From: a virus
Length of the DNA: 33,052 nucleotides
IMG/VR virus record: IMGVR_UViG_3300032322_000290
Location: 1-33,052 of that record
Reading direction: 5' to 3' (one strand)
A model generated the notes under the pieces. It searched no databases and was not told the origin of the DNA. It saw only the letters and a list, made by a program, of their open reading frames with translations. The position numbers and the translations under genes are program-made. Below are positions 4,116 to 31,187 of this stretch, piece after piece. Numbering within the stretch: the first letter of the stretch is position 1; every line of letters begins with the position of its first letter.

Positions 4116-4354
4116 AGCAAAATATAAATAACTATCATACTTGTCAGAATGGGTATATAAGAAACCTTGATATTCATTTACTAAATATGTACGAGCATAT
4201 TTATAGAACGTACTTAGACCCACAATTTGTATTGACTAAGTGGTGTTCTAGTTGTGTTATGGATTGCGTTAAAAGACTTTATGCTTATTACCTAGCATTA
4301 CCGCAAGAGCAGGTTCAAAGTTTACCAAAGAAAAAAGGAAGACCTAAAAAATGA
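4088..4354 (+). CDS. Conserved phage protein with Cys pairs and a basic tail
   Basis: I use ATG 4088 (88 aa) rather than an earlier start at 3977, because the extra 37 residues are a Cys-rich shadow of the membrane gene. The protein has C19, then a WCSSCVMDC cluster in the middle and ends in PKKKGRPKK, an AT-hook-like basic tail (GRP core). It may bind metal and DNA; no family is recognised. It is ATGA-coupled to the glycosyltransferase at 4351. Confidence 0.65.
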   Translation: MEQEHKDYLEQNINNYHTCQNGYIRNLDIHLLNMYEHIYRTYLDPQFVLTKWCSSCVMDCVKRLYAYYLALPQEQVQSLPKKKGRPKK

Positions 4355-5367
4355 GAATACTAGGAATAACACAAAAGCATAGCGGAGTTGGATGGCATAG
4401 GATAATGATGCCACTAACCCACATGGAAAAAGACTATTGTCTAATTACTGACGTATTAAATGACGAAGTTTTAGAGAAAGGCTTTGATATTGTTGTTATT
4501 AATAGGATGCTAAACATAGACACAGAGCAGATAGAAAAGTGGAAAGCTAAATACAATTTTAAGCTAGTAATTGACAATGACGACTACTGGAAACTAGATG
4601 CTACTCACGTTTTGTATCAACGTTACATGAGTGGAGATATAGCTAACAAGATAACTAACTATCTTAGAATATCGGATATAGCAACTGTAACACATGAAAG
4701 ATTAGCAGAAGAAGTTTATCAGTATAATACTAATGTTCATATAATTCCTAATGCTTTACCTTACGGAGATGAGCAGTATTTAGATAAAAAGATTCCTAGT
4801 GATATTGTTAGGCTATTCTGGTCTGGTTCAGATACTCACCAGCACGATTTAAAAATATTGAAAGAGCCAGTTAAAAGGTTTAACAACTTGCCTGTAAAAA
4901 TGGTTATGGCTGGTTATGTTGATAATCACGTTTGGGACACAATGGCTTATTATTTTTCAGCAGGAAGAAAACTAGATACCAAGATTTATCGCTATAATAA
5001 TGTTACAAGATACATGGAGGCGTATGGAGATTCCGACATAAGTTTAATTCCTTTAGTAGATAGCAAATTTAACGGCATGAAATCTAATTTAAAGATTTTA
5101 GAAACCGCTGCTAAAATGAATCCTGCTATCGTTTCAGATGTTAACCCTTACAAGGATATGCCTGTTTTTTATGTGAAAAAACAAACAGATTGGTTTAAAT
5201 GGGTTAATCTTTTAGTTAAAGATAAAAAGCTAAGAGAAGATAGCGGAAAGGAGTTATACCAGTATTGTAAAGACAATTTTAGTCTAAGTGTGATAAATCA
5301 ACAAAGACAAAGCATTTATAATCAGTTATGCCAGTTATCAAATGCTCAAATTCCAAGTACAGAATAG
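4351..5367 (+). CDS. Glycosyltransferase, GT-B fold (GT4-like)
   Basis: At 338 residues it has the length of GT4-type enzymes. The N-terminus reads RILGITQKHSGVGWHRI, the phage GT form of the donor-domain start (glycine-rich loop plus basic residues). The middle has LVIDNDDYWKLD and TVTHERLAEEVYQYN...IIPNALP, where IPN begins the second Rossmann domain, followed by RLFWSGSDTHQHD. Near the C-terminus, DISLIPL and GMKSNLKILETAAK correspond to the sugar-nucleotide-binding EPFG/KxLE region. It would transfer a sugar to an unknown acceptor: host surface glycan, virion protein or DNA. A second GT and an acyltransferase lie downstream. Confidence 0.8.
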   Translation: MRILGITQKHSGVGWHRIMMPLTHMEKDYCLITDVLNDEVLEKGFDIVVINRMLNIDTEQIEKWKAKYNFKLVIDNDDYWKLDATHVLYQRYMSGDIANKITNYLRISDIATVTHERLAEEVYQYNTNVHIIPNALPYGDEQYLDKKIPSDIVRLFWSGSDTHQHDLKILKEPVKRFNNLPVKMVMAGYVDNHVWDTMAYYFSAGRKLDTKIYRYNNVTRYMEAYGDSDISLIPLVDSKFNGMKSNLKILETAAKMNPAIVSDVNPYKDMPVFYVKKQTDWFKWVNLLVKDKKLREDSGKELYQYCKDNFSLSVINQQRQSIYNQLCQLSNAQIPSTE

Positions 5368-8133: not shown

Positions 8134-8396
8134 GAAAGCACACTAAGATTTACATGGACTACTTCGGATATAGCAAAGAAGATTTTATTTCATGTGAGGT
8201 ATGCGGTAGACGAGCCAATGATACACACCATCTAGATTGCAGAGGAATGGGAGGAAGCAAAGACAAGGATAAGATAGAAAACCTTATGGCAGTTTGTAGA
8301 GAATGTCATATAAAATACGGAGATAAAAAAGAGTATATGGATTTCCTAAAAGAGAAGCATCAACAATTTATAGATAGCTATGGAAAGTTCTACTAA
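8130..8396 (+). CDS. HNH endonuclease
   Basis: The 88-residue protein shows C22-x2-C25, the catalytic THHLDCRGMGG (His-His), KIENLMAVCRECHIKYG with a second Cys pair and final His. This is the zinc-stabilised HNH (beta-beta-alpha-metal) nuclease. Small HNH proteins near terminase genes assist DNA packaging in cos and some pac phages. Here two genes separate it from the small terminase. It is ATGA-coupled upstream and overlaps the next gene by 17 nt. Confidence 0.85.
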   Translation: MRKHTKIYMDYFGYSKEDFISCEVCGRRANDTHHLDCRGMGGSKDKDKIENLMAVCRECHIKYGDKKEYMDFLKEKHQQFIDSYGKFY

Positions 8397-8889
8397 CTAT
8401 ATTCATCCTACTGCTATCATTTATGATAACGTAGTTATGGGAGAACATAATTACATAGGTGCTTATTGTGTAATAGGAGCACCTGCAGAGCATAAAGGTA
8501 ATTGGGGTACAACTAGCGACATAGTAGTTATCGGTGATAACAATGTTTTTACTGGATTAGTAACTATTGACGGAGGAATGGATGACGTGACCTACATAGG
8601 AGATAACAATTTCTTTATGAAGCATTCACACATTGGGCACGATTGTCAAATAATGGATAATGTTATAATTAGTTGTGGAGCAAAGATAGGAGGACATTCA
8701 ATAATAGATAGTAACGTAAACATAGGATTAAACGCAGTCATTCATCAGAGGCAATTTATTGCTAAAGGTTGTATGATAGGTATGGGTTCAGTAGTTACTA
8801 AAAAACTAGTAACCGAACCTTATACTAAATATGCAGGTAATCCAGCTAAATACTTAGGACACAATGAAAGCGGCAATCGTACTACTTGA
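8380..8889 (+). CDS. LpxA-like left-handed beta-helix acyltransferase
   Basis: Hexapeptide-repeat (LbetaH) structure is clear: IHPTAII opening, then repeated (V/I)-G-x-x-(N)-x-(I/V) units. Aligned by eye to E. coli LpxA, the region HSHIGHDCQI matches NAHIAHDCTV, placing H84 and H87 at LpxA H122 and catalytic H125; KIGGHSI puts H106 at H144, and AVIHQRQ puts H122 near H160. The protein (169 aa) ends after the helix, lacking LpxA's C-terminal helical domain (262 aa in E. coli). It probably transfers an acyl or acetyl group to a sugar or sugar nucleotide. It overlaps the HNH gene and, by 26 nt, the GT gene. Confidence 0.85.
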   Translation: MESSTNYIHPTAIIYDNVVMGEHNYIGAYCVIGAPAEHKGNWGTTSDIVVIGDNNVFTGLVTIDGGMDDVTYIGDNNFFMKHSHIGHDCQIMDNVIISCGAKIGGHSIIDSNVNIGLNAVIHQRQFIAKGCMIGMGSVVTKKLVTEPYTKYAGNPAKYLGHNESGNRTT

Positions 8890-9502
8890 TTATCTAAGAC
8901 ATCAACATACTGCACAAGCAGTAGCTAGTTTTCCATTAGGAAACTATCCTTATGATATGTTTACCATAGATAAGAAAGGAATAGCGGCTGCATTAAACGA
9001 AGGGATAAGAAAGACCAAAGACTATGACATTGTAGCTTTTTGTGGGAATGATATAGTAATGCCTAACAACTGGTTACTAATGGCAGTAGAGCATATTCAA
9101 GCAATACCAGAAACGGGTATGTGCGGAATCTATTGCGTAGAAACTCTACCAAAGACAGAAGTAATAAACGGAATAGAAGTACACCCAACATGGGCAACAT
9201 TCGGAAATGTTATTATACCTAGAAAAGCAATAGATAGTGTAGGATATTTTAATGAGGCATACGACCCATACGGAATGCAGGATAGCGATTACGGACTAAG
9301 GCTTACACAACTAGGATTTAAATCTTACTATATAAAAGGTTTACAAAGCCAACATATAGGACATGACGTAGGAGAGCAGACAGATTACAGAAAGATGAAG
9401 GATGAAGGATTAAACAAGGCAGGAGCAATCTGGTCAGAATATACTAAACTATACGAAGAATCAAATAACTATACAATATTTTACGATGAGTACAGTAGGT
9501 AG
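8864..9502 (+). CDS. Glycosyltransferase, GT-A fold (GT2-like)
   Basis: The 212-residue protein starts with a Rossmann-like strand (AAIVLLDYLR), then AAALNEGIRK and FCGNDIVMPNNWLL (NDI at 62-64 in the DxD position binding metal and the sugar nucleotide). Residues about 130-158, GYFNEAYDPYGMQDSDYGLRLTQLGF, match the acceptor-side ED/DxDYxxR motif of GT2 enzymes. A single domain without membrane segments suggests a soluble enzyme. It overlaps the acyltransferase gene by 26 nt and the small terminase by 17 nt, so it is co-expressed with packaging genes. Confidence 0.8.
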   Translation: MKAAIVLLDYLRHQHTAQAVASFPLGNYPYDMFTIDKKGIAAALNEGIRKTKDYDIVAFCGNDIVMPNNWLLMAVEHIQAIPETGMCGIYCVETLPKTEVINGIEVHPTWATFGNVIIPRKAIDSVGYFNEAYDPYGMQDSDYGLRLTQLGFKSYYIKGLQSQHIGHDVGEQTDYRKMKDEGLNKAGAIWSEYTKLYEESNNYTIFYDEYSR

Positions 9503-11829: not shown

Positions 11830-12077
11830 TGGAAAGAGTAATACAAAACTTTGACCTAGACTGTTTTATTGAAGCAGAACTAGCTTTTGAAATAACAACT
11901 TTAAGACAAGAAGAATGTCATGGTTACCATTACTTTGATGATTCACATTGCGAAATTGAGAAGTTTAAAGTTCAAATAGACGTAGGAGGTATGCTAATAG
12001 ATATAACCGATAGACTTACTCCAGAGGAACTAAAGGTTATTGAAAATCAGATAGAACCCGACTTTGATATAAATTAA
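11829..12077 (+). CDS. Hypothetical protein, 82 aa
   Basis: The acidic protein contains His/Cys residues in ECHGYHYFDDSHCEIEKF (about 29-46), possibly metal-binding, then a beta-strand and LTPEELKVIENQI helix. It begins at the base that ends the upstream stop (TAATG-type coupling). No family recognised. Confidence 0.65.
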   Translation: MERVIQNFDLDCFIEAELAFEITTLRQEECHGYHYFDDSHCEIEKFKVQIDVGGMLIDITDRLTPEELKVIENQIEPDFDIN

Positions 12078-12087
12078 ACCATAACAC

Positions 12088-12366
12088 ATGAATCACTTAG
12101 AATTAGCATTAGAAAAAATGCCACAAGTATTTAGTAGTAACAAGTATTCAAGGAAATGCAAACAATTAGGATACCCAGAAGAATTAATTAGAGGAGGGTA
12201 CTTAGGAAAGTTTTTGCATGAACATTGCACACAAGTAAACTCTAGAAGAATATGGCAAAAGTCAAAACAAGAAAAGACTAATATTAATATTGAACAAGCC
12301 ATAACGTTATTAAAGGCTGAAGGTTATAAGATTAGTAAGCAGGTCATAGACTGGAAAGAAATATAA
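12088..12366 (+). CDS. Conserved hypothetical protein, 92 aa
   Basis: The pattern MPQVFSSNKYSRKCKQLG, GYLGKFLHEHC and RRIWQK, followed by EQAITLLKAEGYKIS, resembles small proteins found in other Bacteroidota phages. Helices and basic residues suggest nucleic-acid or protein binding. It lies 10 nt after its neighbour and 12 nt before the XRE gene, in the transcript from the 11063 promoter. Confidence 0.6.
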   Translation: MNHLELALEKMPQVFSSNKYSRKCKQLGYPEELIRGGYLGKFLHEHCTQVNSRRIWQKSKQEKTNINIEQAITLLKAEGYKISKQVIDWKEI

Positions 12367-12378
12367 ACAATAAATATA

Positions 12379-12582
12379 ATGATTGGACAATTACTAAAAG
12401 AAAACAGACAGAAGAAGAACCTAACTCAAAAGCAGTTAGGAGAAAAAGCAGGTATAAGTTTTGTAGCAGTTAATAGGATAGAAAGAGGAGCACAACCTAG
12501 ACTATCTGTAGCTAACAAGTTGTTTAACGCTATGGACTTAGACTTGAAATTTGAAGCAGTTAACAAATTGGGTGTTTCATAG
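12379..12582 (+). CDS. XRE/HipB-like HTH regulator
   Basis: The 67-residue protein is a single Cro/C1-type helix-turn-helix: LLKENRQKKNLTQKQLGEKAG, ISFVAVNRIERGAQP, and a C-terminal LFNAMDLDLKFE close to HipB-like proteins. It is probably a transcriptional regulator; the palindrome at 11017 on its own upstream control region is a natural candidate site, giving autoregulation. No partner toxin gene is adjacent. It is the last gene before the terminator at 12592. Confidence 0.85.
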   Translation: MIGQLLKENRQKKNLTQKQLGEKAGISFVAVNRIERGAQPRLSVANKLFNAMDLDLKFEAVNKLGVS

Positions 12583-12591
12583 GTATTAATC

Positions 12592-12630
12592 AACCCCTGC
12601 TATTCTTGGTGGGGGTTTTAATTTTTTTTT
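12592..12630 (+). terminator. Intrinsic terminator after the XRE gene
   Basis: AACCCC at 12592-12597 pairs with GGGGTT at 12612-12617 around a 14-nt loop, followed by TTAATTTTTTTTT up to the next ATG at 12631. It closes the regulatory transcript; the tail genes downstream need readthrough or their own promoter, which I did not find. Confidence 0.7.
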
Positions 12631-12816
12631 ATGGCACAACAAACAGCAGTAGAATGGTTAGTTAAAGAATTTAATCTTGAAGAATATAAGGCTGCAGTAG
12701 AATTTGCAAAAGCAAAAGAGAAAGAGCAGATACTAAATGCTTGTTATCAGTTTTCAGATTACCCATTTAATAAAGAAGACCATTTAGAATACTACAAAGA
12801 AACATATAACAAATGA
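12631..12816 (+). CDS. Conserved small phage protein, 61 aa
   Basis: The pattern QQTAVEWLVKEF, AKAKEKEQILNACYQF and LEYYKETYN is that of a short acidic-helical protein found repeatedly in Bacteroidota phages, with no known function. Its ATG directly follows the T-run of the terminator, so its leader is unusually U-rich. ATGA-coupled to the next gene. Confidence 0.75.
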   Translation: MAQQTAVEWLVKEFNLEEYKAAVEFAKAKEKEQILNACYQFSDYPFNKEDHLEYYKETYNK

Positions 12817-13475
12817 CTTGGAACGATATTAACCTTTATCAGTATCAGCAAATAATTGAGGCTAACAAGATAGAGTACCCTATTGATAGGATAGATAGGC
12901 TTATAGCTATTGTAAATAACTGGACTGCTAATCAAGTAAATGACTTATCAGTAGAACGTTATAATGAGGAGGTCAAGCGTTTAGCTTTTCTAGACAATGA
13001 GCCAGACGGAAAGCCTGTTAAGTTTATAGATGTAAACGGCAAAAGGTACAAGTGCATTTATGACGTTAGAAAGATGCCTAGTGCAAGGTATATTGAATCT
13101 AAAGTATTCCAGACTGACCTAATACCTAACCTACATAAGTTAGCTGCTTCTATGGTAGTGCCTATGAAGAAAACTTTATGGGGTTGGAAGGAAGTGCCTT
13201 ATGATTCTACAAATCATTCTGTTTATGCAGACGATATGCTAGAGGCTAAATTTAAAGACATCTACCATTCCATTGTTTTTTTTTATCATGTATACAGAAT
13301 CTGGATAGAGGTTTCTCGGGATTATTTGAAAACCCAGTTGCAGATGCAGGGAGTGAATCAGTCGGAAAAGGCTCTAGCAGATTTGTTGAGTATTATGGAT
13401 GGCAGTATAGCACCACACAAGTTGCAGAATACTATCGTATCACGCTTAACGAAGCATATCAATTACCGACCATAG
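12813..13475 (+). CDS. Tail assembly chaperone-like protein (zero-frame product)
   Basis: The 220-residue protein resembles conserved proteins between terminase and tape measure in Bacteroidota siphophages: MTWNDINLYQYQQIIEA, YDVRKMPSARYIESKVFQ, KLAASMVVPMKKTLWGW. Position four genes before the tape measure suits a lambda gpG-type chaperone. At 13276-13284 there is a run of nine T, read GTT TTT TTT TAT; a -1 slip there enters a long open frame ending at 13528. The zero frame continues plausibly (VYRIWIEVSRDYLKTQLQ) and ends at TAG 13473-13475. The last 20 or so residues look like shadow sequence. Confidence 0.65.
   Translation: MTWNDINLYQYQQIIEANKIEYPIDRIDRLIAIVNNWTANQVNDLSVERYNEEVKRLAFLDNEPDGKPVKFIDVNGKRYKCIYDVRKMPSARYIESKVFQTDLIPNLHKLAASMVVPMKKTLWGWKEVPYDSTNHSVYADDMLEAKFKDIYHSIVFFYHVYRIWIEVSRDYLKTQLQMQGVNQSEKALADLLSIMDGSIAPHKLQNTIVSRLTKHINYRP
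13277..13283 (+). promoter_or_regulatory. Candidate -1 ribosomal frameshift site T_TTT_TTT
   Basis: The heptamer lies within a T9 run and is in the correct phase with the zero-frame codons TTT TTT, allowing perfect re-pairing after a -1 slip. It is inside the window (13256-13475) in which both frames are open. A second, weaker candidate is G_GAA_AAG at 13364-13370. I saw no obvious strong stem directly downstream of the T9 run. Confidence 0.5.
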
Positions 13476-13528
13476 AGTACCTAAACGCATTGTCCTATTT
13501 GAAAGCCTATCGGGATTATCTTAGATAA
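13283..13528 (+). CDS. Frameshift extension of the tail assembly chaperone (gpT-like)
   Basis: In the -1 frame the sequence is open from 13256 to TAA 13526-13528 and reads as real protein, for example RFVEYYGWQYSTTQVAEYY and LPTIEYLNALSYLKAYRDY. It contains no ATG or GTG and its first TTG is 20 codons or fewer from the end, so it can hardly be translated alone. A -1 slip at T9 gives a fused product of 238 residues (157 + 81). This matches the gpG/gpGT strategy of tail assembly chaperones. An alternative explanation is a sequencing or assembly error in the homopolymer. Confidence 0.6.
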   Translation, partial: LSCIQNLDRGFSGLFENPVADAGSESVGKGSSRFVEYYGWQYSTTQVAEYYRITLNEAYQLPTIEYLNALSYLKAYRDYLR

Positions 13529-13555
13529 TCTCTTTTTTTTTGGGCATTTATAGGA

Positions 13556-14284
13556 GTGAACAAAGCACAAGCACAATTCATTCGTGACCAATTTCTTAGT
13601 AGGTTTGGCAGCCAATATAATACGGCTGCTAGAGGCATTAATGAACAAGGTGATAAGGTTTTAACTTTCCAAGAGCAATTCCCTATTATAGAGGAAATGT
13701 TAATAAGAGCAGGTTTTGACTTTAACAATACTATCCGTAAGAACCTAGAAAAAGCAGGTGCTATTAGTTCTGGAGATTTAGCAGACGTATCAGCACCACA
13801 AGTTTCAAGTAGCCAAGACGGATTTACATTGTCTGTTGGTTATCCCTTAAACTCGAAGCAGATAAAATATTATGATTTTGTCAATAAGGGTGTTGCTGGT
13901 GTAGGAGGTAAGAACGCTAAACTTAAAAAGAACTCTGGGGACTATAGGTTCAAGTCTAAGTTCCCTAATAGGAAAATGGCTGCTTCTATATTCTCATGGC
14001 TTAATCGGGCTAGAAAGTCGGTTAGAACGGATAAGGTAGATTTGTCTGGTGTACAGAAAAAAAGAAGGAAACTAGCAACTGCACTAGATGAAGCAACCAA
14101 AAAGAAAAGATTGGCTTATGCTATTTCTTCAGCAATTAAGAGGGATGGTATAAAAGCTACCTATTATTTTGATAGGGCAATTACAGAAAACTTTACTAAG
14201 GATTTTAAAGACGCTTTGAGTGTTGCACTAGGCGGAGATATTATTTTACAAATTAGACAATATGGCGATAACAATAGTAACTAG
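13556..14284 (+). CDS. Putative tail/neck structural protein
   Basis: The 242-residue protein has SVGYPLNSKQIKYYDFVNKGVAGVGG (about 91-116) followed by SGDYRFKSKFPNRKMA, a signature I associate with a conserved protein next to tail genes in Bacteroidota phages, possibly a tail completion or connector protein. The rest is basic and helical (VQKKRRKLATALDEATKKKRLAY). The start is GTG 13556. It overlaps the next gene by 23 nt. No membrane or enzymatic motif. The structural role is inferred from order and family memory. Confidence 0.55.
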   Translation: MNKAQAQFIRDQFLSRFGSQYNTAARGINEQGDKVLTFQEQFPIIEEMLIRAGFDFNNTIRKNLEKAGAISSGDLADVSAPQVSSSQDGFTLSVGYPLNSKQIKYYDFVNKGVAGVGGKNAKLKKNSGDYRFKSKFPNRKMAASIFSWLNRARKSVRTDKVDLSGVQKKRRKLATALDEATKKKRLAYAISSAIKRDGIKATYYFDRAITENFTKDFKDALSVALGGDIILQIRQYGDNNSN

Positions 14285-15458
14285 CCCACCAGCGGATAGT
14301 TGTTTAAATGATGATATATGGGTAACTGCTAGTTCTACTAATGCAGGTACAACTAACTTTAAGTTCGTGTTTGATATTGTAGTAGGAGGCACAACAGTGT
14401 CAAGGTCTAAGGTATTTCCTAACCCTGCTGATAATTACGGATATTTTAATACTGCACCTATTGTTAGGAATTACATTACTAATTACTTTGAGCCTTCTGG
14501 TTCTTCTATCTTAGTAGAATCTAACGACAAGTGGGCGGTTGCTTACCAGTTACAAATAAGAGAAGAAGTAAGTGGAGGTATATCGGTATTACCAGATGCT
14601 TCAGCTAGTTATTCTGGAAAGAACTTTTATTATCCTTTGTATGCAGATTTATACTCTAGTGGCTCGGTTACCTTATCTAATGTTTATAATGATGCTTTAA
14701 TTAATTATAGAGATAACTTCTTAACCGAAAGAGATATGGGAAATGCCCATAACAAATTTGGTAATAAATTTTTTATCAGTTATTATAGATATGAAGGAAT
14801 TTCACAAACGGCTTATGTAAGAACACTAAACGCTTCAGGTTCGGTAGTAGCTAGTTATAACGCTTCTATTGGAATGTCTGGTAGCTTTAATATGTTTAAT
14901 CTATCTGCATCTGCTATTAATACATGGGCAGGTTCTACATTAATAACAGAAAATACTTATGCTTATGAGTTTTACATTGTATCTAGTGTTGGAACTTCCA
15001 GAGTATTACGAATCTACCATGACTGCTCCAAAAATGGTGGAAACAGTGTACACTTCCTCAACCGCTTGGGAGGATATGATAGTTTCTTTTTCGGTCTTGT
15101 CAACAGAAACTCCGTAAGTAATGAAAAGCAATTTTATAGGAAAGCAGACTGGCAGAGAACGAGTGGAGCAATGCGAACCTATGACATTTACAATAAGTAT
15201 AATGAAACTAAGGTAGCCTTTAGCATTTCGCAAAATAATAGAATAAGTTTAAAGAGTGATTGGGTTAACCAGATTGATTATGCTTGGTTAGGGCAGCTAG
15301 TAAATAGTTCTAGTGTTTATCTAGATGTACAAAATATGTACATACCTCTGTACATAACTACAAATAACCATGAGTACAAGTTACTAAACGTAGACAAAGT
15401 ATTTAACCTAGAGTTAGAAGCAGAGATACCTAAAACAATTAATAGCCAGTTTAGATGA
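14262..15458 (+). CDS. Tail structural protein (FLNRxGGxDSF motif)
   Basis: This 398-residue, Ser/Thr/Asn-rich beta protein contains VHFLNRLGGYDSFFFGL (about 265-281), a motif recurrent in a virion protein upstream of the baseplate hub of Bacteroidota siphophages. The N-terminus looks like an Ig-like or distal-tail beta sandwich (ITIVTSPPADSCLNDDIWV). It probably belongs to the tail tip. It overlaps the gene before by 23 nt and is ATGA-coupled to the next at 15455. Confidence 0.6.
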   Translation: MAITIVTSPPADSCLNDDIWVTASSTNAGTTNFKFVFDIVVGGTTVSRSKVFPNPADNYGYFNTAPIVRNYITNYFEPSGSSILVESNDKWAVAYQLQIREEVSGGISVLPDASASYSGKNFYYPLYADLYSSGSVTLSNVYNDALINYRDNFLTERDMGNAHNKFGNKFFISYYRYEGISQTAYVRTLNASGSVVASYNASIGMSGSFNMFNLSASAINTWAGSTLITENTYAYEFYIVSSVGTSRVLRIYHDCSKNGGNSVHFLNRLGGYDSFFFGLVNRNSVSNEKQFYRKADWQRTSGAMRTYDIYNKYNETKVAFSISQNNRISLKSDWVNQIDYAWLGQLVNSSSVYLDVQNMYIPLYITTNNHEYKLLNVDKVFNLELEAEIPKTINSQFR

Positions 15459-17456: not shown

Positions 17457-19148
17457 ATGGCAGAACAATTAAATTATAATATAAACGTTAGTGGTAATGC
17501 TAATGAATCAGTAGGTTCTTTAAAAAAACAACTAAGAGAAGCACAGGCAGAGGTAGGTGTTTTATCTGAAAAGTTTGGTGCAACATCTCAACAAGCTATT
17601 CAAGCAGCAAAAAGAGCAGCGGATTTAAAAGACAGAATAGGTGATGCTAAAGCATTAACGGATGCCTTTAATCCAGACCAAAAATTTAATGCGTTAACAA
17701 AATCTTTAGCAGGAGTTGCTGGTGGTTTTGCAGCTGTGCAGGGTGCTATTGGATTGTTTGGTGGTGAATCTAAAGAACTAGAAAAACAATTACTAAAAGT
17801 TCAGAGTGCTTTAGCTTTATCACAAGGACTAGAACAAATTGGTAATGCAAAAGATAGTTTCAAACAACTTGGTGCAGTAATACAAAGTACAACAGTTTTT
17901 CAAAAAGCAAATGCTGCCGCTAACGCTTTGACTGCTGCTACATTAAAGGCGGTAGGTGTATCTGCTGAAACAACCGCTATAAGTTTTAGGGTATTAAAAA
18001 CAGCAATAGCTTCTACTGGTATTGGTTTATTAGTAGTTGCTTTAGGTGAGTTAGTATCTGTATTAATGAACTATACTAGCGAAGCAGAAAAGGCAAAAAA
18101 GAAACAAGAAGAATTAAATAAGGCTTTTACAGATGGTACAAAAGAAGGATTAAAAGCAGCTAAAGAATTTATAACATCAAAAGCAGAATTAGACCAATTA
18201 CGAGTACAGGCTGAAGGAGGCACAGAGGAACAAATAATAGCTATAAGAAAAAAGTCTATCCAAGACCAAATAAATCTTAACAAAAAAAAGTATGAAGATT
18301 TATTAAAAACAGATAAAGAAGCAGCTACTCAAATAGTAAATGAAAATGCTTTACTTCAAGATGAATTAACTAAGATTGATTTACAAGCACAAATTAAAAG
18401 AAACGAGAATAGAAAAAAACTAAGAGAAAAAGAGGCAGAAGATGAAAAGAAAAGAAGAGAAGCAGAATTAAAAAGAATATTAGCTGGTAGAATAGATGAA
18501 GACCCTTTAATTGCTTTACAAACAAAAAGACAAGAAGCAATAAAAAATACAGATGCAGTTGTTGTTGGTTCTGTAACTAAAAATTTACAAGCATTAGGTG
18601 CAAGAGTTAATGCTGAAAAGAAAGCAGCAGATGATAAAAAGAAACTAGATGATAACGCAGCTAAAACAGTAGAAGATAGAGAAAAAGCTAAGCAAGATGC
18701 GTATGCTATGACCGCTGATGCTTTAGGTGTTTTAGGTGAAGTTGTTGGTCAAGAAACTGCTGCTGGTAAGGCACTAAGTTCTGCACAAGCATTAATTAAC
18801 ACATTCTTAGGTATAACTCAAATATGGGCAAATAAAACAGTTATTCCAGAACCATTTGGCACTGCTGCTAAAGTAGCCGCTACTGCAACTGCTGCTGCTA
18901 GTGGATTCTTAGCAGTTAGAAATATCAATAGAGTTAATGTGCCTAATGGAGGCGGAGGTGTTTCTGTTCCTTCTTTTAGTGCTGCACCTTTAACACCAAG
19001 TAATGCTAGTCTTTTAACTACAAGTTTATCACAACAAACTATTAATGCAATAGGAAACCAAGCAATAAGAGCCTATGTAGTAGAGACAGATATAACTAGC
19101 AATCAAAAAAGAATACAAGCTATAAAACAAAGAGCAAGGTTTAGTTAA
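17457..19148 (+). CDS. Tail tape measure protein
   Basis: The 563-residue protein starts YNINVSGNANESVGSLKKQL, followed by long Ala/Lys/Glu-rich helices (QAEVGVLSEKFGATSQQAIQ...), a hydrophobic stretch near 180-200 (ASTGIGLLVVALGELVSVL), a strongly charged coiled coil (about 205-345, e.g. KLREKEAEDEKKRREAELK) and a Gly/Ala-rich C-terminus. This is the layout of tape measures. By the usual 0.15 nm per residue it predicts a tail near 85 nm. No lytic domain is visible. ATG follows the upstream stop by one base. Confidence 0.9.
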   Translation: MAEQLNYNINVSGNANESVGSLKKQLREAQAEVGVLSEKFGATSQQAIQAAKRAADLKDRIGDAKALTDAFNPDQKFNALTKSLAGVAGGFAAVQGAIGLFGGESKELEKQLLKVQSALALSQGLEQIGNAKDSFKQLGAVIQSTTVFQKANAAANALTAATLKAVGVSAETTAISFRVLKTAIASTGIGLLVVALGELVSVLMNYTSEAEKAKKKQEELNKAFTDGTKEGLKAAKEFITSKAELDQLRVQAEGGTEEQIIAIRKKSIQDQINLNKKKYEDLLKTDKEAATQIVNENALLQDELTKIDLQAQIKRNENRKKLREKEAEDEKKRREAELKRILAGRIDEDPLIALQTKRQEAIKNTDAVVVGSVTKNLQALGARVNAEKKAADDKKKLDDNAAKTVEDREKAKQDAYAMTADALGVLGEVVGQETAAGKALSSAQALINTFLGITQIWANKTVIPEPFGTAAKVAATATAAASGFLAVRNINRVNVPNGGGGVSVPSFSAAPLTPSNASLLTTSLSQQTINAIGNQAIRAYVVETDITSNQKRIQAIKQRARFS

Positions 19149-21959: not shown

Positions 21960-22334
21960 ATGATACAATTAACTAAAGGAGCAACGCAATTCATCTATTT
22001 GACCTTAACGGAAAAGCAAACGTTAACGAATCCTAATTACTTGTTCGTGTTTAAAAATAGGTCTACTAATACAGAGGTAAAGTTTGTATTATTAAACGCT
22101 GCTGATTTATCTTTGTATAAAGACAGATATAATAAATTTAGTATAAAGTCAGATAAATATTTTTCAAGCAAACCTAGAGGGCAGTATAGCTATTCAGTTT
22201 ACCAACAAACTAGCACTTCAAATACCGATATAACAGGACTAACAGAATTAGAGAGTGGGATAATGTGGCTGAATGAAACAGAAAATGTTTATACTGAATA
22301 TCAAACTAATGATACATTTAAAGTAAGACAATGA
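21960..22334 (+). CDS. Conserved virion-associated protein, 124 aa
   Basis: I start at ATG 21960; the longer frame from 21903 begins in the terminator and is unlikely. The protein is beta-rich: IQLTKGATQFIYLTLTEKQTL, YLFVFKNRSTNTEVKFVLL, YKDRYNKFSI, GQYSYSVYQQTS. This pattern of a small beta-sandwich protein just before the portal recurs in Bacteroidota phages. Possibly a head or tail decoration protein. TACCTTTG at 21932 resembles a -7 element, but no -33 partner is placed correctly. ATGA-coupled to the portal gene. Confidence 0.6.
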   Translation: MIQLTKGATQFIYLTLTEKQTLTNPNYLFVFKNRSTNTEVKFVLLNAADLSLYKDRYNKFSIKSDKYFSSKPRGQYSYSVYQQTSTSNTDITGLTELESGIMWLNETENVYTEYQTNDTFKVRQ

Positions 22335-24253
22335 CAACAGGAGATAATTTTTTTGTAGTACAATTTGCAGAGGCAAAGCAGCCCGAATACAGAGAGAAGA
22401 AGAAAGAGGGTTACATGGAATACGGGGATAGGAATGACTACCCTTTATACCTAGTAGAGTTATTTAACAAGTCTGCTAAACATAACGCTATTGTAAGAAA
22501 TAAAGTACACTATATCTGTGGCAACGGTTGGACAGGTAACGAGCAGTTTATAGAGAAGCCTAACAGGTCAGAAAATCTTAATGATTTGACTAGGAAAATA
22601 TCTATGGACTTAGAGTTATTTGGTGGTGCATATATAGAAGTTATTTGGGGATTAAACCAAGTAGCTGAAATATGGCATATAGACTATACTAAAATCAGAA
22701 CCAATAAAGACAATACTCAATTTTGGTATAAGGATAATTGGAAAGATGCAAGAGAAAAGACAGAGTTTGTATATCCTGCTTTTAACCCAAAAGTTCAAGA
22801 GGGCAAACAGATTATCTACCTAAAGGAATACAGACCTAATATAGGGGTTTATTCTTTGCCCGTGTACTTTGGTGCTTTAAATTACATTGAATCGGATATA
22901 GAGGTATCTAAACACGTTTTAGGCAATGCGAAGACAGGCTTTAGTGCAAGTAAGTTAATTACCCTACCAGATGGGCAGCCTTCAAGAGAAGAACAAAACG
23001 AAATACACAAGAAGTTTAAAAATACTTACACAGGTTCGGATGGTGTAAAGTATATGCTATCGTTTGTAAACGATGCTTCTAGGAAACCTATTGTAGACGA
23101 TTTAGGACAATCGGATTTAACTAAAGAAGATTTTGGTAGAGTAGATGAGTTGATTCAAACTAATATCTTCTCTGGGCATCAAGTTACTACTCCTTCTATC
23201 TTTGGTATTGCGGTGGCAGGTAAGCTAGGCACTAGGTCAGAGATGAGAGACGGGTATGAGATTTTTAAGAATACTTACGTTAATGGTAAGCAGCAGTTCT
23301 TAGAATCCTTTATTAATACTATGGCAGGTTATTTTGGTTATAGTGAGGATATGCGAATTATACCAGCAGAAGCTATTGGCATGGAGTTAGGGGAAGCTAC
23401 CTTACTTCAAATTATGAGTAAGGATGAACTAAGAGAAAAAGTAGGTCTACAAAAACTAGAAGAACAAGCAGAATCTACTCAACAGGATGTAATAGATGCT
23501 ATCAATAGTTTAAGTCCTATCGTTGCAAATAAGGTATTAAACACTCTAACTCCTAATGAGTTAAGAGCTTTAATTAGTTTACAACCTAAAGAAGGTGGTG
23601 AAACATTGCAGCCAGAACTTAACCCTGTTGAGATGGCAGACCAATATTCTTTGTTTTTTGAATTAGGAGAAAATAAGTCAGAGTTTGAGGTTTGGAAAAA
23701 GAAGAACTATTTTGAGGACATGGAGTTGTTTGCTGATGTAACACAATTACAATCTGATGTATTAGACTTGATAAGCAAGGATAAAAGAATTACCGCAGAG
23801 GTAATAGCAGACACTTTAAAAGAGGATGTAGGTGTAGTTAAGAGAATCATTACAGCACTAGAAAAGAGAGGCTTCATTAAGTCTACTGAAACCACAATAG
23901 GTAAGGGTATAGATTCTAACATTCAAATAGAAAGAAAATTAACAGAACCTTTAAGAGATATAGTAGAAAAGATTAAACCTAAGACTACTGAATTTTTAAT
24001 TAGATATTCTTATGAATGGAAAAAGGGTATTCCTAGTTCTCAAAGAGATACTAATGCACATCCTTCTAGGGAGTTCTGTAAATATCTTTTACAAGCAAAT
24101 AAAATGTATTCTAGAGCAGAAATAGAGCAAATGAGTGCAAGGTTAGGATATTCTGTATGGGATAGAAGAGGTGGATGGTGGACAATGCCTAACGGAGAAC
24201 ATTCTCCTTCATGTAGGCATCAATGGGTTTCAAATGTGGTTACCAGAAAATAA
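22331..24253 (+). CDS. Portal protein with winged-helix insert and MuF-like C-terminal region
   Basis: The 640-residue protein starts like Bacteroidota phage portals (FVVQFAEAKQPEYREKKK, EYGDRNDYPLYLVELFNKSAKHNAIV). The crown and clip region is followed by GIAVAGKLGTRSEMRDGYEIF (about 298-318). Then, at about 474-519, SDVLDLISKDKRITAEVIAD followed by VVKRIITALEKRGFIKS reads as a winged helix. The last 70 residues (PSREFCKYLLQANKMYS, YSVWDRRGGWW, SCRHQW) resemble the C-terminal region of MuF-like minor head proteins. Thus portal and minor head functions may be joined in one chain. Confidence 0.75.
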   Translation: MTTGDNFFVVQFAEAKQPEYREKKKEGYMEYGDRNDYPLYLVELFNKSAKHNAIVRNKVHYICGNGWTGNEQFIEKPNRSENLNDLTRKISMDLELFGGAYIEVIWGLNQVAEIWHIDYTKIRTNKDNTQFWYKDNWKDAREKTEFVYPAFNPKVQEGKQIIYLKEYRPNIGVYSLPVYFGALNYIESDIEVSKHVLGNAKTGFSASKLITLPDGQPSREEQNEIHKKFKNTYTGSDGVKYMLSFVNDASRKPIVDDLGQSDLTKEDFGRVDELIQTNIFSGHQVTTPSIFGIAVAGKLGTRSEMRDGYEIFKNTYVNGKQQFLESFINTMAGYFGYSEDMRIIPAEAIGMELGEATLLQIMSKDELREKVGLQKLEEQAESTQQDVIDAINSLSPIVANKVLNTLTPNELRALISLQPKEGGETLQPELNPVEMADQYSLFFELGENKSEFEVWKKKNYFEDMELFADVTQLQSDVLDLISKDKRITAEVIADTLKEDVGVVKRIITALEKRGFIKSTETTIGKGIDSNIQIERKLTEPLRDIVEKIKPKTTEFLIRYSYEWKKGIPSSQRDTNAHPSREFCKYLLQANKMYSRAEIEQMSARLGYSVWDRRGGWWTMPNGEHSPSCRHQWVSNVVTRK

Positions 24254-29319: not shown

Positions 29320-29583
29320 ATGGGAGTACAAATTCAACCAGTATCAATCTGGGTAAACGGACAAAGCAAACAAGCATCAGAGTTAGATGCAAGAATTATT
29401 TTTGATGATTTAGCAACAAGTGCAACCTTCTACTACGAACTTAAAGAAGTAGTTGATGGGGTTAGCAGTGCATTATCTGTAGGCAATGTTGGAATGGATG
29501 GTGAAAATTATATTGACTGGGATAATTCTAACGAAGAGGCTTACGTTTATATCGCAGGTAAATTAAATCTTACTATTATTTAA
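29320..29583 (+). CDS. Small beta-rich virion protein, 87 aa
   Basis: The 87-residue product begins MGVQIQPVSIWVNGQSKQAS and has SATFYYELKEVVDGVSSALSV and GMDGENYIDWDNSNEEAYVYI, a pattern of short beta-strands. It lies between two fibre genes with shared-base coupling to the second (TAATG), so it may be a fibre connector or a small capsid/tail decoration. No family is firmly recognised. Confidence 0.6.
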   Translation: MGVQIQPVSIWVNGQSKQASELDARIIFDDLATSATFYYELKEVVDGVSSALSVGNVGMDGENYIDWDNSNEEAYVYIAGKLNLTII

Positions 29584-31187
29584 TGCCAGTAATACAACCT
29601 ATTACAAGTTCTTCTGGTTCTTTTCCTTTTGTTCCAAATACAAGAACTCTAACTATAAATGGAGTTGCTTATGATTTAAGTGCTGACAGAAGTTGGACAA
29701 TTAGTACAAGTGGAACAGGAACAGTTACAAGTGTTGCCTTATCTGCTACTATGCCCACTGGTTTAGTAGCTAGTATAAGCGGCTCACCTATTACCTCAAA
29801 TGGTACACTAGGTTTAACAATAACCATGCAGAGTGGTTATTCTATTCCTACAAATACCAAACAAAGTAATTGGGATAGTGCGTATGCATTTACTAATGCG
29901 TTTCCGACAGGTACTGCTCAACAATTACTTAGGTATAATACTTTAGGAACTGCATTGGAGTTTTTTACTCCTAATTTTATAGTATCAACTGATATTATCG
30001 CTACTACTCCTCTTGTTTGGAATAGCGGAACAAAAACAATGTCTATTCCACAAGCCAATAATACTACTAACGGATTTTTATCTTCGGCAGATTGGCTTAC
30101 GTTCTCATCAAAGCAACCAGCAATAACTTTAACTACCACTGGTAGTAGTGGAGCAAGTACCTTTAATAATATTACTGGTGCATTAAACATCCCACAATAT
30201 ACGTTAATTGGTTTGGGGGGGTTTGCAAATCCAATGACCACTGCTGGAGATATAATGATAGCACGAAGCACTGGGGAGCCTGAACGATTCGCTGGGAATA
30301 ACACAACGACAAGGAAATATTTTTCACAAATAGGTGATGGCACATCTGTTATCTCTACATCTTGGGAAACAATAGCAGGAACTATTGGTGGTAGTGGTAC
30401 AACTAATTATGTTCCTGTATTTACCTCGTCAAATGCTATCGGCAATAGCATCATTACTTCAACATCCAGTATAATAAGTATTGGTCAAGGAGGAACTGGT
30501 ATAGAATATGCAATCCAAATAGGTACAAATAGAGGTGGCAATGGATATGCTTACATAGACTTAATCGGAGATGAAACTTACACCGATTTTGGATTAAGGG
30601 TAATTAGGAATAATACTGGTGCAAATACAACGTCTCTTATAGAGCATAGAGGCACTGGTGACTTTTTACTAAAAACAACTGATTCTGCACAGTTTAAAGT
30701 ACAAACAGCATCAACTGATAAGTTAGCAATTTATGCTAATGGGCAGTTAAGATTAAATGCATACACTTCCACAACAAGTTTTAGTGGCGTTGCGATAGGT
30801 TTACTTGCCTATGACGGCTTTGGTCAAGTCATAACACAACCTAACCTACCGCAGAGTGGTAATTATACCCCTACCTTGTATGCTGGTACTAACATTAGTG
30901 CGACAACTGCATATAACTGCCAATACATAAGAATAGGCAATGTTGTGTCGGTAAGTGGTAGATTAGAGGCAAATGGTACGACTGCTGGAGTAACGTCATC
31001 AGTAGATGTTGAGTTGCCATATAATACAACTTTTACAAGTGCAGACCAATGTAATGGTGTGTTAACGGCACAAGACAATATTTGTGGTATTATCTATGGT
31101 GGTTCAACGAGAGCAACTTTAGTATTTACACCAGCAAATACGGGGTCGTTTAATTATTTCTTTACACTTCATTTTCAAATAATATAA
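29583..31187 (+). CDS. Second tail fibre / receptor-binding protein, 534 aa
   Basis: The opening TRTLTINGVAYDLSADRSWTI and the linker VTSVALSATMPTG are standard elements of Bacteroidota phage fibres; GFLSSADWLTFSSKQ is shared with the first fibre (ALNSADWTTFNNKQ). The last 110 residues (SGNYTPTLYAGTNISATTAYN, YIRIGNVVSVSGRLEA, FNYFFTLHFQI) look like a separate beta-sandwich head, the usual place for receptor binding. No enzymatic or chaperone motif is visible. It is the last gene before the -7-like element at 31189. Confidence 0.75.
   Translation: MPVIQPITSSSGSFPFVPNTRTLTINGVAYDLSADRSWTISTSGTGTVTSVALSATMPTGLVASISGSPITSNGTLGLTITMQSGYSIPTNTKQSNWDSAYAFTNAFPTGTAQQLLRYNTLGTALEFFTPNFIVSTDIIATTPLVWNSGTKTMSIPQANNTTNGFLSSADWLTFSSKQPAITLTTTGSSGASTFNNITGALNIPQYTLIGLGGFANPMTTAGDIMIARSTGEPERFAGNNTTTRKYFSQIGDGTSVISTSWETIAGTIGGSGTTNYVPVFTSSNAIGNSIITSTSSIISIGQGGTGIEYAIQIGTNRGGNGYAYIDLIGDETYTDFGLRVIRNNTGANTTSLIEHRGTGDFLLKTTDSAQFKVQTASTDKLAIYANGQLRLNAYTSTTSFSGVAIGLLAYDGFGQVITQPNLPQSGNYTPTLYAGTNISATTAYNCQYIRIGNVVSVSGRLEANGTTAGVTSSVDVELPYNTTFTSADQCNGVLTAQDNICGIIYGGSTRATLVFTPANTGSFNYFFTLHFQII

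Follow-up and report, generated by a model that had tools for sequence, protein, structure and literature searches.

The gene described here lies in a viral DNA stretch of 33,052 nucleotides (IMG/VR record IMGVR_UViG_3300032322_000290, positions 1 to 33,052), which is referred to below as the window. It carries a run of nine T's (T9) and two overlapping reading frames, all on the + strand. The zero frame (12813..13475) starts with ATG and encodes a gpG-like protein of 220 aa that is conserved in 286 loci. The T9 run (13276..13284) is read in this frame as GTT TTT TTT T and contains a phase-correct T_TTT_TTT heptamer at 13277-13283. In both the sequence and the ORF list, the -1 frame is open from 13256 to 13528. 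Following a -1 slip at the run, translation would continue through an extension (13277..13528, FFLSCIQ...AYRDYLR, then TAA) with 81 residues past the shared FF, giving a 238 aa fusion that has residues 1-157 in common with the 220 aa product. The initial annotation had proposed a programmed -1 frameshift here, and its zero-frame stop at 13475, open -1 frame, heptamer and count of 157 shared residues are all correct. Its description of the zero frame is refined in one respect, as the 63 codons past the slip site are also conserved coding sequence. This zero-frame tail overlaps the -1 extension over 13284..13475 (+), where both frames code.

The surrounding genes follow the order TerL, T9 gene, neck-like gene, two further genes, putative tape measure, protease-like gene, and capsid, and the own-family relatives examined share this order from TerL to capsid. 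The putative tape measure gene (17457..19148, +), designated by its length, sequence character, and position only, is the fourth gene downstream. Placing the T9 gene between terminase and tape measure was therefore right, with the addition that three genes separate it from the latter. Two more T9 runs near the gene follow hairpins and are intrinsic-terminator-like; one (13512..13541, +) overlaps the 3' end of the -1 ORF, the other (12592..12630, +) precedes the small gene 12631-12816, and neither is the slip site. Across 95 dereplicated loci, 8 of 13 other T9 runs fall about 250 nt past the slip site. Elsewhere in the window, the portal protein (22331-24253) contains, after its portal part, a winged-helix (MarR/HTH_24-like) stretch at approximately residues 467-520 that scored below curated cut-offs, and a G7 run (30215-30221) lies within a tail-fibre-like ORF (29583-31187). 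By eye, 305-688 encodes a stand-alone protein like the DnaA DNA-binding domain, and ORFs at 4351-5367, 8380-8889, and 8864-9502 appear glycosyltransferase-like and hexapeptide acyltransferase-like.

When viral contigs were searched at the protein level, 73 relatives of the window protein came up, a number that rose to several hundred in searches with alignments. The own-family scan was keyed on the upstream domain and not on the T run. TTT TTT within a T run was present in all 286 assessable own-family loci (one additional locus ends before the slip site and was left out), with a run of nine in 270 and of ten in 16. The extension was in the -1 frame in every one of the 286, which comprise 207 distinct slip regions. 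Two of the T10 loci, L087 and L089, have an unusual phase in which TTT replaces the GTT codon, and they too keep the -1 relation. Phe codons elsewhere in the gene are split between TTT (237) and TTC (219); at the slip site they are always TTT TTT. The comparison with related phages that the initial annotation had called for thus found that every complete relative, T10 members included, has kept the T run and the two frames. A scan of genome contigs yielded one relative, on a Chitinophagaceae MAG contig, and no others were found among 395 sampled genomes of the same phylum. In the INPHARED phage collection, no relatives were found with any of the queries used: the window protein, its extension, a pair of distant members, and an extension from the sister family.

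That sister family is remote and includes Nonlabens phage P12024S, whose portal protein shares 27% identity with that of the window. P12024S gp38 directly follows the terminase and has a T9 run in the same phase as the window gene, and gp39, in the -1 frame of gp38, is part of the gp38 -1 extension. The two are annotated as separate hypothetical proteins. P12024S differs from the window in its short zero-frame tail of 27 codons past the run. All 140 readable sister-family loci (113 distinct slip regions) have a run of nine or ten T's together with the -1 relation. By profile comparison, the own and sister families are homologous in both gene halves, with hhalign probabilities of 99.2% (E 1e-19) for the zero-frame parts and 96.5% (E 1e-9) for the extensions. 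The two halves of the gene correspond to two PHROG families without assigned function, phrog_32199 (gp38 in P12024S) and phrog_38404 (gp39). These were strong profile matches of scanned proteins, and the window protein itself matches phrog_32199 weakly. Taken across the two families, the -1 slip arrangement is conserved in 426 of 426 loci and 320 distinct slip regions. Because the relatives (286/286 and 140/140 loci) keep both the run and the -1 extension, the T9 arrangement is real, and judged from these sequences the site is a deeply conserved -1 recoding site.

The overlap was further examined using substitution rates at zero-frame codon positions 1/2/3 in 19 sister pairs. Upstream of the slip site, the rates are 0.058/0.036/0.223, and at the slip codons they are zero. 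Just past the slip site they are 0.014/0.032/0.056, in the linker 0.060/0.060/0.137, from the YGW motif onward 0.012/0.104/0.074, and past the zero-frame stop 0.032/0.172/0.074, by which point the pattern has changed to that of the -1 frame. The regional rates therefore indicate that the first part is constrained by both frames, the linker mainly by the zero frame, and the late part mainly by the -1 frame. Some of the zero-frame conservation is forced by the -1 frame, for example the MDG opposite YGW. The zero-frame tail is 48-85 codons long in the 95 dereplicated loci, and the mean probability of the zero frame staying open given the -1 protein is 0.013. Conversely, the mean probability of an open -1 frame across the overlap, given the zero-frame protein and the family codon usage, is 0.0025. 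With this value and recurrence in 320 distinct slip regions, a -1 frame that is open by chance is excluded. Since the extension is conserved and the zero-frame tail is constrained, approximately 190 nt code in two frames, and by their substitution patterns both frames are under purifying selection. The earlier view of the -1 frame as a convincing protein is borne out by this selection and by conservation of the extension across relatives, including its GW, VAE, and LN.L.YLKA motifs. Structures of the two parts were predicted separately. AlphaFold gave a mean pLDDT of 83.5 and a pTM of 0.76 for the zero-frame protein, and the -1 extension (pLDDT 71) is predicted as helices with a poorly modelled linker.

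The T9 gene is best read, by analogy, as a lambda G/GT-type tail assembly chaperone pair of 220 and 238 aa. In lambda, G and GT are two products of the tail module that have a shared N-terminus, with a -1 C-terminal extension on one of them (PMC5009743). The T9 gene likewise belongs to the tail module and precedes the putative tape measure, and its two overlapping frames appear to be connected through a -1 slip site that is conserved. The chaperone assignment is made because of this architecture and gene position, as for lambda G/GT. Among profiles named tail assembly chaperone in Pfam, NCBIfam, and PHROG, none was matched by the scanned proteins. There was one weak profile match to phrog_166 'tail protein' (E 0.005) and weak fold matches to viral-library proteins annotated as tail assembly chaperones (E 0.19 to 0.9), with no significant sequence or fold match in the PDB. 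The chaperone-like identity first suggested for this gene thus fits its position, architecture, and weak fold similarity, though not any curated profile. We consider it likely that the gene yields two proteins with 157 shared residues through a -1 slip at T9, and that these form a chaperone pair on the lambda analogy. Standard decoding would produce the 220 aa protein, and a fraction of expression would slip -1 at T9 in the cell to produce the 238 aa protein with its C-terminus from the -1 frame. The slip rate would then set the ratio of the two products. By analogy with lambda G/GT, the part shared by both may bind the tape measure protein and the -1 domain may recruit the tail tube subunit.

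There are differences from lambda as well as similarities. Although lambda gpG/gpGT and the T9 gene both combine a common N-terminus with a -1 extension in the tail module (PMC5009743), the lambda ribosomal shift occurs near the 3' end of g, whereas the T9 gene has its T9 run followed by 63 more zero-frame codons, and other genes separate it from the putative tape measure. In SPP1 gp17.5/gp17.5*, a putative -1 shift at U_UUU_UUC leaves 112 of 173 residues shared, and the 61 codons past the site make a similarly long zero-frame tail (PMC6316719). The SPP1 heptamer ends in C, however, whereas that of the T9 gene lies within a conserved run of nine, and the SPP1 extension is longer (297 aa total). 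In P2, E/E+E' is expressed by a -1 shift at T_TTT_TTG without a downstream hairpin, and the T9 gene shares this U-rich, hairpin-free arrangement (PMC3091744). P2 is unlike the window in being a contractile-tail phage with shorter proteins and a run of six T's. Long zero-frame tails and U-rich sites therefore have precedent in SPP1 and P2. Outside phages, bacterial A/T runs of nine are known to slip (PMC5009743, PMC1088944). Thermus dnaX and Shigella mxiE and spa resemble the T9 gene in that an A/T run yields products from different frames (PMC5009743), but they are not phage tail genes, and slippage was measured there while it is inferred here. A search of a limited literature collection found no report of this T9 slip site. 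The T9 gene represents an unusually clean T-run variant of the tail chaperone frameshift already known from phages, and what is new is the invariant T9 and a possibly transcriptional mechanism.

Some rival explanations do without a programmed frame change. Homopolymers are error-prone, and at one locus, L449, a T10 run fuses both parts in one frame. This locus is on the reverse strand, where the run falls in its last 40 bases and 11 bases from a contig end. A deposited viral protein model of 243 aa, A0A6J7WJY4, also matches both gene parts; it and L449 may be rare in-frame variants or homopolymer errors. An assembly or sequencing error, or a decayed gene, is nevertheless extremely improbable as the general explanation and is ruled out, since the frame relation recurs across 320 distinct slip regions and in two isolated phages, P12024S and P12024L, and since both frames are under purifying selection. 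The fused frame of L449, and perhaps that of A0A6J7WJY4, could instead reflect phase variation, with DNA slippage between T9 and T10 leaving each genome to make one protein or the other. We reject this as very unlikely, given that 450 loci contained no T8 variant of the searched motif and that T10 loci otherwise retain the -1 relation. A scan of viral contigs for the T10 pattern in the family context also recovered two stretches only, L449 and the known L087 contig. Annotation of P12024S gp39 as a separate gene would fit expression of the extension from its own internal start with no frameshift. The initial annotation had stated that the -1 frame lacks ATG, GTG, and any usable start, and this holds: neither codon was found in that frame over 13256-13528, and the sole TTG codons (13490 and 13499) are near its end. 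In addition, homology of the -1 part starts at the FF within the slip site. Expression from an internal start is accordingly rejected, its probability being negligible.

The frame change could occur during transcription or during translation. The conserved -1 relation upholds the programmed -1 shift of the initial proposal, in which the level was left unspecified; slippage of the polymerase is no less likely than slippage of the ribosome. If the polymerase inserts or drops U's on T9, ribosomes would read the mixed mRNAs conventionally, and we give this an even chance. Every relative has an uninterrupted T run of at least nine (T9 or T10), as is found at slippage sites, and in many bacterial genomes selection against A/T runs becomes visible once they reach nine (PMC1088944). 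Other runs of at least nine are depleted in the 95 loci relative to a first-order Markov expectation, with 13 observed against 47 expected for T and 13 against 113 for A, and the third frame closes within 15 codons. However, the two-frame coding constraint can partly yield the run length, and replication slippage may underlie the depletion of other runs.

Alternatively, the ribosome alone may slip -1 on U_UUU_UUU as in P2 and SPP1, with the extra T's due to the flanking amino acids, which we judge a little short of an even chance. A phase-correct X_XXY_YYZ heptamer, in the form T_TTT_TTT, is present in all loci of both families, and the flanking T's sit in codons of hydrophobic or aromatic residues. 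U-rich sites are also known in tail chaperone genes, where P2-like phages have no downstream hairpin (PMC3091744, PMC6316719). Against this, all 162 sequences in which a C at heptamer base 7 would alter neither protein have T there, compared with 50 C among 245 controls, a comparison made on related sequences so that its p-value is nominal. P2 has G and SPP1 has C at this base, and locus L445 lacks the usual upstream T yet keeps a run of ten. We found no downstream stimulatory RNA structure (mean z about -0.4), an upstream SD-like motif in only 1 of 42, and no Rfam match in 12000-14500. Such structures and motifs are frequent at ribosomal -1 sites but not required, P2 likewise being without a hairpin. 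The run of at least nine, the invariant free base, the lack of RNA structure, and the A/T-run depletion together lean slightly towards transcriptional slippage over the ribosome.

These results join two PHROG families of unknown function as one frameshifted gene and suggest what many unannotated phage genes probably do. The phages of this large and predominantly uncultured T9 group are probably phages of Bacteroidota. It is plausible, at slightly under even odds, that the tail chaperone ratio of these tailed phages is set by RNA polymerase slipping at the invariant T9 and not by ribosomes shifting frame. The isolated phages P12024S and P12024L would provide a clean test case for whether a tail assembly ratio is set at transcription or at translation.
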